Source of the DNA: Bacillota bacterium
GTDB taxonomy: Bacteria; Bacillota; Dethiobacteria; Dethiobacterales; Dethiobacteraceae
Length of the DNA: 53,199 nucleotides
NCBI GenBank assembly: GCA_012522335.1
Contig: JAAYKP010000012.1
Location: forward strand, 1 to 53,199
Direction of reading: 5' to 3'
Shown here: positions 19,107 through 26,818 of the stretch, piece by piece
Position numbering within the stretch: the first letter of the stretch is position 1
Layout of the letters: each line of letters begins with the position of its first letter
Translations under genes and position numbers: made by a program
Notes under the pieces: model-generated
The model's input: the letters and a program-made list of their open reading frames with translations, nothing else
Database searches by the model: none
Told to the model about the DNA's origin: nothing

Positions 19107-19907
19107 TTAAGGCAGCTGCCCCTCTGTAATCTTTTGTCGCGCAGTTAAAGCTGCAGGTGAGAGGGCAGACAGCTGATCAAATAACTTTACCTTAAACAGT
19201 GCCGGTCCATCCGCCTCTTCTGCAGCAAGTTCGGCGGCAGTATTAATTGCTGCCAAACCTGCAGCGGCGGCCGCCAGGTAATTTGCTTCCACGGCGGCAA
19301 AACAAGCTATGACTGAGGCCGTCATACAGCCGGTACCGACTACTCTGCTCATGAAATGATGTCCGTTATGTACTTCCAGTAACTGCTGACCATCTGTTAC
19401 CAAATCCACCTCACCGGTTACAGCAACAACTGCCCCTGTTTCTCTGGCCAGGGCCGCTGCTAAGGGCACGACATCAGCCGAGACGGCGATGGCTTCCACG
19501 CCTTTAATTTCCGCCACGCCACCGGCTAAAATGGCAACCTCGGCCGCATTACCTTTAATGATACTGAACTGTAGCTCTGCCAGCAGCTTCTTAACACTGG
19601 CAGAACGCAAAGACGTTGTCCCCACCCCCACCGGGTCAAGGATCAGCGGACGCTGCAGTTTATTGGCACTCCGGCCCGCCTGCAGCATAGCTTCGATTTG
19701 CGCCGGAGTCAAAGTGCCGATATTAAGTACCACTGCATCAGCACCGGCTGCCATCTCTGCCGCTTCTTCCACTGCATGCGCCATAATGGGCAGACCACCG
19801 GCGGCTAAAGTAATATTGGCACACTCACTAATGGTAACTTGATTAGTGATATGGTGAATTAGCGGCCGGCGCTGCCGTAAAGCTGTTAATATTTTTCCTG
19901 TATCCAT
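19107..19907 (-). CDS. thiM: hydroxyethylthiazole kinase
   Basis: The 266-residue ribokinase-fold protein has the ThiM hallmarks: PLIHHITNQVTISECANITLA near the start, LDPVGVGTT, IIKGNAAE and the C-terminal VVGTGCMTASVIACF, which holds the anion hole and catalytic Cys. It phosphorylates hydroxyethylthiazole in thiamine salvage. GAGGAGG lies 6 nt before the ATG. A TPP riboswitch immediately upstream controls it. thiD and thiE, its usual partners, are absent from this window, so the pyrimidine branch must be elsewhere. Confidence 0.97.
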   Translation of the reverse strand: MDTGKILTALRQRRPLIHHITNQVTISECANITLAAGGLPIMAHAVEEAAEMAAGADAVVLNIGTLTPAQIEAMLQAGRSANKLQRPLILDPVGVGTTSLRSASVKKLLAELQFSIIKGNAAEVAILAGGVAEIKGVEAIAVSADVVPLAAALARETGAVVAVTGEVDLVTDGQQLLEVHNGHHFMSRVVGTGCMTASVIACFAAVEANYLAAAAAGLAAINTAAELAAEEADGPALFKVKLFDQLSALSPAALTARQKITEGQLP

Positions 19908-19954: not shown

Positions 19955-19975
19955 CTTGTTCAGCCCCATCGCAGT

Positions 19976-20070
19976 CCTTCCCTACGCTGGTATTACCCAT
20001 CTCAGGTTCAAAGGGTTAATTGGCTTAAACGTGCCAATTTCTCAGCCCGTACTAACGGGCACCCCTAGGT
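19976..20070 (-). ncRNA. TPP riboswitch aptamer
   Basis: Read on the minus strand, the region has the conserved Thi-box elements in order: GGGGTGC, GGCTGAGA, ACCCTTTGAACCTGA, TGGGTAATACCAGCG and TAGGGAA. These form the pyrimidine- and pyrophosphate-sensing helices that bind thiamine diphosphate and lower expression of the downstream gene, here thiM. Confidence 0.97.
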
Positions 20071-20094
20071 TACTATGCAGTTGTTTTTTTTATT

Positions 20095-22701: not shown

Positions 22702-23505
22702 ATGTTTATAAGTTTTGTGCTATCACGAAAAAAGAAGCGCATAATTCTGTTGGTGGCAGCTGCCCTTATCCTGCTGTTTTTAGTTAAATTATACTGGGTA
22801 AACCGGATCAGTGCGGCAGTGGGGCAAAAACAACGTCTCGTGCCCATCTATTATGTTGACACTACTGAGCCCAAAATAGCGATTTCCTTTGACGCCTCCT
22901 GGGGAGCTGAATTTACACCGAAAATTTTAGAAATTTTGCGTGAAAACAAGCTGAAGACAACTTTCTTTTTAACCGGCTTGTGGATTGATAAGTATCCGGA
23001 ACTGGTGAAGCAGATTGCCGCAGAGGGTCATGAACTAGGCAACCATACTGCCACCCATCCGCATTTAAATTCTTTAGATAAAGAAGCAATTATAAAAGAA
23101 CTGACATCAGTTCATAACTCACTGAAAGAATTATCCGGCCAGGAAATAACCCTCTTTCGTCCGCCCTTTGGTGAGTACAGCAACAAGGTGATCGAAACCT
23201 GCAGCGAATTCGGTTATCAGACAATACAATGGAGCGTTGATTCCCTGGACTGGAAAGAAATCAGTAAGGATGAAATCGTCAAACGCGTTACCAGTCAATT
23301 GCATCCCGGCGCAATTGTGCTCTTTCATAATAACGGCCGCTACACTGCCGATGCCCTGCCGGAGATTATCAGCTTCGCCACAGAAAACGGTTACAAAATT
23401 GTGCCCATCTCCCAGCTTTTGTATAAAGATGATTACTATATTGATCCTAATGACGGTGCGCAGCGTAAAAATAACCCGGCAGCCAACAATTCCCCGCCGC
23501 AATAA
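22702..23505 (+). CDS. PdaB-like polysaccharide deacetylase
   Basis: The 267-residue protein has an N-terminal basic stretch and one membrane anchor (about 14-32), then a NodB-homology domain facing outside. The motifs are FDASWG, as in the PdaB group rather than FDDGP, then HxxxH in GNHTATHPH, RPPFGEY and WSVDSLDW, with IVLFHNN at the end. PdaB-type proteins deacetylate wall polymer during sporulation and are needed for spore stability. The last 25 residues are a polar tail. AAGGAGG lies 9 nt before the ATG. It converges with the next gene with only 2 nt between stops and no terminator visible. Confidence 0.88.
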   Translation: MFISFVLSRKKKRIILLVAAALILLFLVKLYWVNRISAAVGQKQRLVPIYYVDTTEPKIAISFDASWGAEFTPKILEILRENKLKTTFFLTGLWIDKYPELVKQIAAEGHELGNHTATHPHLNSLDKEAIIKELTSVHNSLKELSGQEITLFRPPFGEYSNKVIETCSEFGYQTIQWSVDSLDWKEISKDEIVKRVTSQLHPGAIVLFHNNGRYTADALPEIISFATENGYKIVPISQLLYKDDYYIDPNDGAQRKNNPAANNSPPQ

Positions 23506-23507
23506 AG

Positions 23508-24917
23508 TTAATACTTTCGCGAGCCGGTGTTACTTTTTACTGTAAAAATCCGCCGCAGCATTATTGACAGCAATAGCAGGCCGAGTACTGACAGGGGAAA
23601 ATAAGCAAAAATGCGCTTGATCTTAACGGCAGCTTTGTCAGCTGCTGTTATTTTTTCTTTTGCGTACAACGTAAAATATAAATCATCTGCGGGTAAAGCT
23701 GTAAACTCTGCACTGTACTCACGCTCTGCCGTCTGTTTTAAGGGCAGGCTGCTGTTCACAACATAAGGGGTTTCCGGGGGAGTGATAATCCTGATCTGCA
23801 GATTTTTAAAATGGCGCCAGTGCGCAGCCGGTTTCAGCAGATAGGTAAAAGAATACTGTGGACTGACAGTTTCCCTTTTATCCATAGTCCCGGAAGTAAC
23901 GTAACTAACGCTTACCTCTCTCACACTTTGCGGCGGAAATTCTACCGTATAGAGCAGCACCAGCATGCGCTCCTGCTCTGCCTGCGCCCATAGTTCTTCT
24001 GCTGCACAATATCCGAGATTGTAGGTAAACTGACGGTCAAGTGCTTCTGCGTACAGATTATATACCTGTGTTTCATCCAGCAGCGTTATTGCCGTTGTCC
24101 CAGGCTGCTGCCGGCTTAAGGTTAACAAGTATGGCTTAACCTGCTGTGCTTCAACAGTAATTTCTGCCGTATACAAGTCTGTACTATCTGTAAGCTCCCC
24201 GTCGGTATATGCCTGCACAGTAAAGTCTAATTCGCCGCCCAAGACAAAAATTGCTGCCTGCATAGGTTCTGCACACCAGCTTGTCAGACGTACTTTTTCA
24301 CCTTCACGCTCGAAACCGTTAAACCCATGACAGAGAATACTGATCTCCTCAGCATGATAGCTAAAACTTACAGCAAAATTGATGTTTTGCTCCGTGGTGG
24401 GACTAAGCATAAAGCGATACAGCCTGCCAACTTCCCCGGCCGAGAAATTGTCTGCATCATATTGCTGCCTGCTGACGGCAGACAATATATCCTGAAAAGT
24501 TAAACTATTTGAGGGAGCAGCCGCCGCGCCACTGTCCGCGAAGTCAAGGCGCGAACCCAGGTAGAGCTCAAATGGCAGCTCATGAGCATCGGCTTTGATG
24601 ACAATTTCAGCTGCATCCAGCATCTGTAGTCGTCCGCAAAAGGGGAAAGCCATCTGGACTGCCTGCTGCTCAGCGGTAGGATTGGACATCTGATAAGTGG
24701 CCGTAACTTTTCCCGCTAAATTGTAGGTAGGAGTATACTGCTGCGAAAAATCAAAAACAAGCTCTTCACTTTCTACAATCAGCGGTGTCTCTTTTTCAAT
24801 GGTCATCATTTCTGCAGCAGGGTACCCCTGCCAATAGACAGGCCCGGAATTGGCAGCAGCTGGGGTGAATAATGTGAGTATTAATAATAGCGTGATAATG
24901 GCTGCATACTTTTTCAT
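23508..24917 (-). CDS. secreted, C-terminally anchored protein of unknown function under a T-box
   Basis: The 469-residue protein has a signal peptide (MKKYAAIITLLLILTLFTPAAA, cleavage after AAA-N likely), a long extracytoplasmic beta-rich region and a single membrane segment near the C-terminus (about 438-458, FPLSVLGLLLLSIML) followed by a basic tail, so it is a type I membrane protein. The mature protein begins NSGPVYWQGYPAAEMM. No catalytic motif is recognised. A complete T-box leader with an apparent phenylalanine specifier lies directly upstream with its own promoter, and no other gene shares the transcript. Why a secreted protein should respond to uncharged tRNA is unexplained. Confidence 0.8.
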   Translation of the reverse strand: MKKYAAIITLLLILTLFTPAAANSGPVYWQGYPAAEMMTIEKETPLIVESEELVFDFSQQYTPTYNLAGKVTATYQMSNPTAEQQAVQMAFPFCGRLQMLDAAEIVIKADAHELPFELYLGSRLDFADSGAAAAPSNSLTFQDILSAVSRQQYDADNFSAGEVGRLYRFMLSPTTEQNINFAVSFSYHAEEISILCHGFNGFEREGEKVRLTSWCAEPMQAAIFVLGGELDFTVQAYTDGELTDSTDLYTAEITVEAQQVKPYLLTLSRQQPGTTAITLLDETQVYNLYAEALDRQFTYNLGYCAAEELWAQAEQERMLVLLYTVEFPPQSVREVSVSYVTSGTMDKRETVSPQYSFTYLLKPAAHWRHFKNLQIRIITPPETPYVVNSSLPLKQTAEREYSAEFTALPADDLYFTLYAKEKITAADKAAVKIKRIFAYFPLSVLGLLLLSIMLRRIFTVKSNTGSRKY

Positions 24918-24972
24918 CGTCTCACTTCCTTCCTTTCCCCCTTATCCGGGGGAAGGCTGCTTTCTTTTTTGT

Positions 24973-25254
24973 GAAAACAAAACGCCCCTGTTAGCTAACA
25001 GGGGCGAATAAATTATTCGCGGTACCACCTTGTTTTCGTTGTTAAAACAACCTCAGCGGGCAACCATCATTGCCCCTCCACGTTAACGGGTAGAACCCGA
25101 CACAGCCTACCGGGCCTCAGCCTTTCAGTGTGCGGCTCCTAGGATGAATTCACAGCTGAGATCTGCTTTCTCCCACCATCCGAAAGCTCTCTGTAAAGAT
25201 CAAATGAGCTGTTACGATTCCTCGTCATCGCCTTTATACCGATGAAATAATATT
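24973..25254 (-). ncRNA. T-box leader, phenylalanine-type specifier
   Basis: Read on the minus strand, Stem I contains paired ACAGCT/AGCTGT and GATGA/TCATC helices enclosing the specifier loop, with an AGAGAGC bulge and a GGATGGTGGGAG apical segment. In the 3' half of the loop the common pattern GAA-NNN-A reads GAA TTC A, placing the specifier UUC (Phe) at 25148-25146. The T-box AAGGTGGTACCGCG (25031-25018) can pair with an uncharged tRNA acceptor end. A 12-bp terminator stem (24983-25006) follows with TTTTGTTTT. The class is certain; the specifier call is by pattern. Confidence 0.92.
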
Positions 25255-25260
25255 ACACAC

Positions 25261-25289
25261 ATCTTATGCTAATGTTTGCTCTTTGTCAA
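25261..25289 (-). promoter_or_regulatory. promoter of the T-box leader
   Basis: TTGACA (25284-25289), 17 nt, TAAGAT (25261-25266) on the minus strand. Confidence 0.8.
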
Positions 25290-25309: not shown

Positions 25310-26818
25310 TTACTTTTCGTTTAATTTGTCACGCTTTAATAATCGAGCGATCTTTTCTTTGCTGACCGGCACAAAATCTGCAATTTTCTGCTGCCACCGG
25401 ACAGTATATTGATCACCATGACGAATTAAATACATTATCGCATCACCGAGGGAGACGGCGGCATTTCTGATTTTTTCCTGGACAGAAGCCAGCCAGATAT
25501 CACCTTTTTCCGTATAAGGCAGCACCTGCTCAAACCATGGCGCTAATTGTTCACGAATGGCAGCCAAAGGTGTATTAAGAAAATAAAAGCCCAGCGCAAT
25601 CACCGCCGTGACAGCAAACATCCATAAGGCATTTCTGGCCGCAGTCCGATTTACATTACCGGCTCCGCCGCCGCCTTGTGCTGCAGGGCCTTCTTTAGGC
25701 ACAGGCGCTGCCTGCCGGTTTTCCTTAGTGTTTTCATCTTCCGGTCCGTAGAAATAATACGAAACTACATCTGCAAAAAGGGCAGCACCCTCCTCTGCTT
25801 GTTCACGCAGATTGAGATGAGTTCCCACCTCAATCAGCAAACTGGTCGGAGTTAAATCCTGGTTGTAATTGCCGCGCGCCATGAAAATCCCTTTAACCAG
25901 ATTGGGATGTATCTTATCAGCAGTATTTTTTAAGTCCAGGGCAAATTGACGGATAGTCTGCATATGGGGATTCTGTCTGCCCACCACAAATTGTACCTGT
26001 GTAACGGCTTCTCCGTCAACGGTGGCTGCATAAGCATTAGCAGGGCCGGCATCGCGGTGCACATCAAAAACCACATCCGGTCCCTTTTTTAATATTGCTT
26101 CGGCTGTAACCCGGGAGCGGCGGTAAGCACCACGGTCATGCGGTAAATGTAGTGTGTTGCTGCGTATTACTTTAATTTCCTTTTCCTTCAGGGCTGCAGC
26201 AAAAGCATCCCCTACCTTGTGAATACCGCCTTTACCATCGATGCTGTCTGTGCCGTCAGTAGGTACGTATGATTCAGCATTATGAGTATGATAGATACCA
26301 ATCAGACGTTTCGGGGCAGCCTGCGGCCGTAAATCTTCCTCCTCCTGCTCTTTTTTTGTTTTGTCAGCTTCTTTGTTTTTTGCCGCTTTTTTTTCCTTCT
26401 TTTCCTGCTTATTATCTTTTGGCTGCTGTACAGGGCGGACTTCACCGAAAAACCGCTGCTGCAGCATTACCAGCAGGCTTTCAGGTTCTGCCTCAAAATC
26501 AGCGCCAACATCTCGGACATAGCGCGCTTCAGCCACACGGTCACGTACGCGATGAACGCGATATAGTTGGTTCTGCGCAGTAAGATATTCATCACCGACA
26601 TGAATTTTCCGCCCTGTAACCATAATTTCTTTGCCGTCTTCGTCAACCATCCGGTAATATTTTTCCGCCCGCAAATCTTCTCTTGAGATTTCTCCCGTAT
26701 CAAAATTATCAAAGAAATCCCACCGTGAGCGGGAACCTGCCGGCAGGTCAGCCCGATTAAGCAAAAAAACGGAACACAAGGTCACCATCAACAAAAGAAG
26801 TAAGGTTTTTCTGTTCAT
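25310..26818 (-). CDS. spoIIP: stage II sporulation protein P-like amidase
   Basis: The 502-residue protein has an N-terminal membrane anchor (5-20), a region of about 110 residues, a very Lys/Glu-rich linker (about 135-165), and the SpoIIP amidase/endopeptidase domain with IGIYHTHNAESYVPTDG and, later, SLLIEVGTHLN, the metal-ligand motifs. SpoIIP cuts peptidoglycan with SpoIID during engulfment. It is longer than usual: after the catalytic domain comes a second hydrophobic segment (about 395-415) and a tail of about 85 residues. The start overlaps the upstream DUF1614 stop as ATGA. The family is firm; the role of the C-terminal extension is unknown. Confidence 0.9.
   Translation of the reverse strand: MNRKTLLLLLMVTLCSVFLLNRADLPAGSRSRWDFFDNFDTGEISREDLRAEKYYRMVDEDGKEIMVTGRKIHVGDEYLTAQNQLYRVHRVRDRVAEARYVRDVGADFEAEPESLLVMLQQRFFGEVRPVQQPKDNKQEKKEKKAAKNKEADKTKKEQEEEDLRPQAAPKRLIGIYHTHNAESYVPTDGTDSIDGKGGIHKVGDAFAAALKEKEIKVIRSNTLHLPHDRGAYRRSRVTAEAILKKGPDVVFDVHRDAGPANAYAATVDGEAVTQVQFVVGRQNPHMQTIRQFALDLKNTADKIHPNLVKGIFMARGNYNQDLTPTSLLIEVGTHLNLREQAEEGAALFADVVSYYFYGPEDENTKENRQAAPVPKEGPAAQGGGGAGNVNRTAARNALWMFAVTAVIALGFYFLNTPLAAIREQLAPWFEQVLPYTEKGDIWLASVQEKIRNAAVSLGDAIMYLIRHGDQYTVRWQQKIADFVPVSKEKIARLLKRDKLNEK

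Follow-up and report, generated by a model that had tools for sequence, protein, structure and literature searches.

In the window, the 53,199-nt stretch of Bacillota bacterium contig JAAYKP010000012.1 that was analysed here, a phenylalanine-type T-box leader stands directly before a gene for a 469-residue exported protein (P469). The best explanation, to which we give a probability of about 0.87, is that the genes and terminator of an ABC importer for aromatic amino acids (TrpX/CD0873 type) were deleted in the window lineage, which joined the importer's leader to the next gene, P469. This account is based on the orthology of the T-box to the leader of the importer, the conserved locus in the related genome G010 and the absence of the importer from the window genome. 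We infer from these data the deletion as an event, the induction of P469 on phenylalanine starvation and the loss of P469's own promoter.

Covariance-model search with cmscan indicated that the window holds a single RF00230 T-box (24997-25237, minus strand), matched over its full length with a score of 113.7 bits (E 1.8e-24), the gathering score being 93. The leader runs from Stem I to the terminator, and its assignment is further backed by its identity to ten importer T-boxes. It is preceded by a consensus sigma-70-type promoter (TTGACA-17-TAAGAT, 25261-25289, minus strand; all leader elements lie on this strand). The distal part of Stem I with the AG bulge and apical loop, CAGAGAGCUUUCGGAUGGUGGGAGAAAGC, lies at 25165-25193; the specifier codon UUC, within GAA-UUC-A-UCC, at 25146-25148; and the antiterminator GGUGGUACCGCGAAUAAUUUAUUCGCC, with a UGGU bulge for the ACCA end of tRNA-Phe, at 25003-25029. 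An intrinsic terminator with a 10-bp stem and a U-rich tail follows at 24974-25006, its stem spanning 25006-24983 and leading into TTTTGTTTT. The CGCC at 25003-25006 is common to the antiterminator and the terminator stem (24983-25006), making the two structures mutually exclusive. Because folding of the single leader strand was of weak significance (z -1.5), the case for the structure rests on the covariance model and on covariation, with 13 predicted pairs showing double-sided changes across the leader set. In the order and spacing of its elements the leader is like other transcriptional T-boxes of the Stem I/II/IIAB/III class, and we conclude that the window RNA is an ordinary Phe T-box. 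The sequence-only reading of this DNA had proposed a complete leader of this type, with promoter, specifier, T-box sequence and terminator, and both the model score and the specifier call bear it out.

The specifier was read by eye with a position rule in which the codon is followed by one base and then by the 3' strand of the lower Stem I helix; TBDB assigns specifiers by an equivalent rule (PMC7778990). With the 15 T-boxes of the 2.0-Mb, 99.3% complete genome read side by side, the rule gave the matching amino acid for ileS (AUC), tyrS (UAC), pheS (UUC), valS (GUG), leuA (CUC) and serS (UCC), and the same rule gave UUC for the window T-box. It ruled out UCA (Ser) and AUU (Ile) as specifiers. 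The tRNA-Phe of the genome has the anticodon GAA, a discriminator A and the end A-CCA, complementary to the UGGU bulge. Elsewhere, two DAHP-synthase-like genes, named from their translated starts only (G000:C129 and C113), have separate T-boxes whose specifiers were read as UUC (Phe) and UAC (Tyr).

An amino acid gene downstream of a T-box is usual, if not obligatory, and none follows the window T-box, behind which P469 stands alone (23508-24917, minus strand; intact open reading frame). The unit is a one-gene unit, as had been proposed together with its coordinates, since the next gene, a convergent PdaB-type polysaccharide deacetylase gene (22702-23505, plus strand) that serves as the downstream anchor, ends 2 nt away. 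The SpoIIP gene (25310-26818, minus strand) provides the upstream synteny anchor. The P469 protein is mostly beta, with a signal-peptide-like N-terminus and a C-terminal transmembrane helix, and gave no confident match in Pfam or NCBIfam; an AcrIIC5 profile match (E 0.006) was judged to be due to chance. A contig search with the single P469 sequence as query returned no match. An alignment-based contig search found 21 loci in named genomes, in genera that include Sedimentibacter, Natronincola, Evansella, Litchfieldia and Proteiniclasticum; P469 is one of a widespread, unnamed Firmicutes family whose members are exported, are mostly beta and carry a C-terminal transmembrane helix. DUF4424 (PF14415) matched weakly in 6 of the 21 homologues (best E 0.0047); P469 itself had no match to it and, with the Pfam gathering score not reached, is a member by no cut-off. 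Comparison of the AlphaFold model (pLDDT 81.6) against the PDB gave no usable identification of the fold, the matches being weak and the best (TM 0.32/0.45) being 4g2a, a 'putative nutrient binding protein'. Between the leader and P469 we also observed a strong 9-bp G/C hairpin (24932-24956, minus strand; CCTTCCCCC-GGATAA-GGGGGAAAGG), right before the ribosome-binding region GGAAGGAAGUGAG and not seen in the leaders of relatives, which could influence translation or mark the junction.

Relatives point to the likely origin of the leader. In G010, a member of the same family, spoIIP is followed by a Phe T-box, genes for a substrate-binding protein (SBP, PF04392), a permease (PF02653) and an ATPase, a terminator-like hairpin, P469 and pdaB. 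This region and the window are collinear, sharing alr, a C26 peptidase gene, a DUF1614 gene and spoIIP upstream and P469, pdaB, hisC and thiM downstream, and the three importer genes between the T-box and P469 are extra in G010. G016, of the same genus as G010, likewise has the order T-box, importer, P469, pdaB. In the window, a TPP riboswitch (19962-20076, 71.2 bits) lies upstream of thiM (19107-19907) in an ordinary arrangement. When the importer was sought in 60 relatives, we found ten complete operons in nine genomes, every one with a T-box directly upstream; in G006, G008, G015, G018, G024, G032 and G047 the module of importer and T-box stands at loci with other neighbours. All ten T-boxes have UUC in a GAAUUCRUC context, and all ten are preceded at the equivalent place by a TTGACA hexamer.

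The window T-box was 77-86% identical to these ten importer T-boxes, with 86% for those of G010 and G016, and 63-76% identical to the rest of its own genome's T-boxes. In a maximum-likelihood tree it fell inside the clade of importer leaders with support of 99/97. This clade was not confined to importer leaders, since the tyrS T-box of the window genome joined it on a long branch. On this sequence comparison, the window T-box is the importer's leader, with the importer itself missing.

These data also bear on the suggestion of the sequence-only reading that a former pheST operon had been lost here and its T-box left behind. Such a loss might have been expected from the UUC specifier and from G016, where a pheST operon with a T-box lies beside spoIIP. 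A synteny check for pheST nevertheless led away from the window locus: contig C132 of the window genome carries pheS at its usual place after an rRNA methyltransferase gene (rrm), immediately preceded by a UUC T-box of its own; in G010 and G001 pheS likewise stands at this place behind its own T-box. Moreover, the window T-box was 67% identical to its own genome's pheS T-box and 69% to that of G016, versus 86% to the G010 and G016 importer leaders, and the two pheS T-boxes compared, those of G000 and G016, grouped together (100/99). We thus rejected a lost pheST at the window locus, pheS standing elsewhere with its own T-box, and put the chance of this history close to nil. The idea of a lost operon is supported, and what is missing is an ABC importer of the aromatic-amino-acid type.

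G016 offers an observation of its own, since its two Phe T-box loci (L028:6911-9134, G016:C8, and L180:5001-7958, G016:C110) have swapped upstream neighbours: rplT-rrm leads into the importer T-box and spoIIP into the pheST T-box, in contrast to the order rrm, T-box, pheS in G010 and G000. This swap reflects either a rearrangement whose two breakpoints lie just 5' of the T-boxes or a chimeric assembly. The spoIIP-pdaB interval is variable in general, with the two genes adjacent in G009 and parted by unrelated genes in several other genomes, and neither a T-box nor P469 was found in this interval in eleven other members of the family. In G013 the interval includes a cobalamin riboswitch (L175:5149-5320), indicating that the interval collects regulated inserts.

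The variability of this interval, together with the movement of the importer unit between loci, could also fit a history in which the T-box came alone, by duplication, before P469 and the importer was inserted between them later in the genus of G010 and G016. We consider this very unlikely. T-boxes of the same subfamily precede the importer in every operon for which upstream DNA could be compared, in this family and in others, and an insertion of the importer just downstream of an existing Phe T-box would need a coincidence. P469 is common to the window, G010, G016 and G001, and the identity of PdaB places the window nearest to the genus of G010 and G016 (83 and 82%, versus 78% for G001). The simplest history under the deletion account would therefore have P469 present first, the importer and its T-box inserted upstream of it, and the importer later deleted in the window lineage. 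This order of gain and loss follows from parsimony, as G001 has P469 with neither T-box nor importer.

The importer SBP and permease were missing from the 99.3% complete assembly, where the best match was a 44%/52% paralogue on contig C102 behind a Trp (UGG) T-box, and no importer remnant of the right subfamily was left in the window. In place of the importer, about 2.9 kb long in G010, the window has an interval of 65 nt (24918-24982, minus strand), which must hold the deletion junction. Comparison of the junction sequence with the leader of the importer and with P469's own leader gave no clear match (p about 0.04-0.07 for both). In G016, the 11-nt repeat TGAAAAAGTAT is present at both start codons; this is a possible deletion site, and the repeat is itself unsurprising as both genes start MKKY. 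The fusion of the T-box to P469 was seen in one genome, the single representative of its genus in the comparison. An assembly error at this locus is unlikely, since the importer is found nowhere else in the assembly.

The sequence-only reading had proposed that P469 takes part in phenylalanine supply or peptide scavenging. A legitimate T-box target involved in phenylalanine or peptide acquisition would suit an intact-looking leader, an exported and membrane-anchored protein, the adjoining importer in G010 and G016 and the weak structural resemblance to 4g2a, yet several lines of evidence run counter to it. The leader is that of the importer itself. G016 has a terminator between the ATPase gene and P469, and G010 a comparable hairpin and T run, so that P469 is no clear member of the T-box operon in either genome. 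The P469 orthologues of G001, G010 and G016 are 46-51% identical to the window protein. Beyond the genus of G010 and G016, a scan of 17 named loci and of G001, 18 loci in all, revealed no T-box near P469 that reached the gathering score (L125, a fragmentary match, was left out); in none of the other homologues examined was a T-box the nearest leader, and no such importer was found nearby. The neighbours tested elsewhere (lepA, an SLH/WG-repeat protein, LytTR, a HAD hydrolase and a ferredoxin-like protein) showed no amino-acid theme. We therefore find a role for P469 in phenylalanine or peptide acquisition improbable. Because the leader was most likely inherited from the importer operon, its UUC specifier is no evidence for a role of P469 in phenylalanine supply and is no basis for assigning this protein a function. 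We likewise see only a small chance that the hand-over was kept by selection, with P469 entering the phenylalanine-starvation regulon and assisting, once the importer was gone, in the uptake of aromatic amino acids or peptides.

How the leader would act on P469 at present can be predicted from its anatomy. Transcription would start at the promoter at 25261-25289. Charged tRNA-Phe would let the terminator form, and the RNA would end near 24974; uncharged tRNA-Phe would pair through its GAA with UUC and through its ACCA with UGGU, so that the antiterminator would form and P469 would be transcribed. P469 should thus be switched by the charging state of tRNA-Phe. The gene has probably also lost its original promoter, since at most about 65 nt of its own upstream DNA can remain.

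A reading that competes with such present-day function, and is compatible with the deletion history, is that the leader is a decaying relic and that expression of P469 is driven by a different promoter or is close to nil. The window leader differs at five positions that are invariant in ten other leaders, and one of these lies inside the AGUA motif of the specifier loop, where AGUA has become CGUA, a change that could lower the activity of the leader. The importer leaders of G006 and G024, however, show 5 and 4 such changes, and relaxed constraint on the window leader is not demonstrable from this comparison. As the promoter, specifier, bulge, antiterminator and terminator are all intact, we regard decay as rather unlikely.

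The importer to which we trace the leader belongs to a known group. Its SBP family is TrpX-like (NF041285, 329 bits, under the cut-off of 390), and solved relatives include CD0873 bound to Tyr, SP1069 bound to Trp and VC_1101 bound to Phe (PMC6816091). At the position of Glu-263 of CD0873, which contacts the tyrosine hydroxyl, all ten SBPs behind Phe T-boxes, among them that of G016 at L028:8166-9134, have Glu, and the Trp-T-box SBP paralogue of the window genome has Ala/Tyr, the pattern of VC_1101 (Phe). In these importer SBPs, the pocket signature is at odds with the specifier.

Functions are routinely assigned to unknown genes from the specifiers of the T-boxes before them, and the window locus offers a well-documented counter-example, in which a clean and intact Phe leader precedes a gene that most likely received it through deletion of the leader's true target. 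It is a natural case of an RNA switch passed to an unrelated gene through the simple loss of an operon, and the intermediate arrangement preserved in the sister genus makes the regulatory consequence directly testable.

Comparison with known systems places the locus as follows. RF00230 T-boxes usually control a synthetase, biosynthetic or transport gene, and the target of the window leader is none of these. With the Phe T-boxes of TrpX/CD0873-type importers (PF04392 SBP, PF02653 permease, ATPase) the window shares the specifier context, whole-leader identity and the G010 locus, but it is without the three importer genes and its leader abuts P469. The trpXYZ tryptophan importer with a T-box, such as that of Streptococcus suis TrpX (PMC9382623), is of the same family as the relatives' operons but has the specifier UGG in place of UUC, and the Trp-type copy of the window genome is a separate locus (C102). 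In C. difficile, natural, recurrent and independent losses have affected genes of an ABC importer for aromatic amino acids, with reduced uptake of Tyr and Phe (PMC5951980); that case is alike in being a natural deletion in an importer modelled on the same SBP family and differs in that two of three genes were lost through recombination between paralogous operons, with no mention of a T-box in its text. The statement of the sequence-only reading that known T-boxes regulate amino acid genes was too strict, since hypothetical genes behind T-boxes have been catalogued since 2008, with the specifier used to suggest their function (Wels et al., 2008; PMC2494555). The window resembles those cases in having a gene of unknown function behind a complete T-box, and differs from them in that comparison with relatives points to a leader inherited from another operon.
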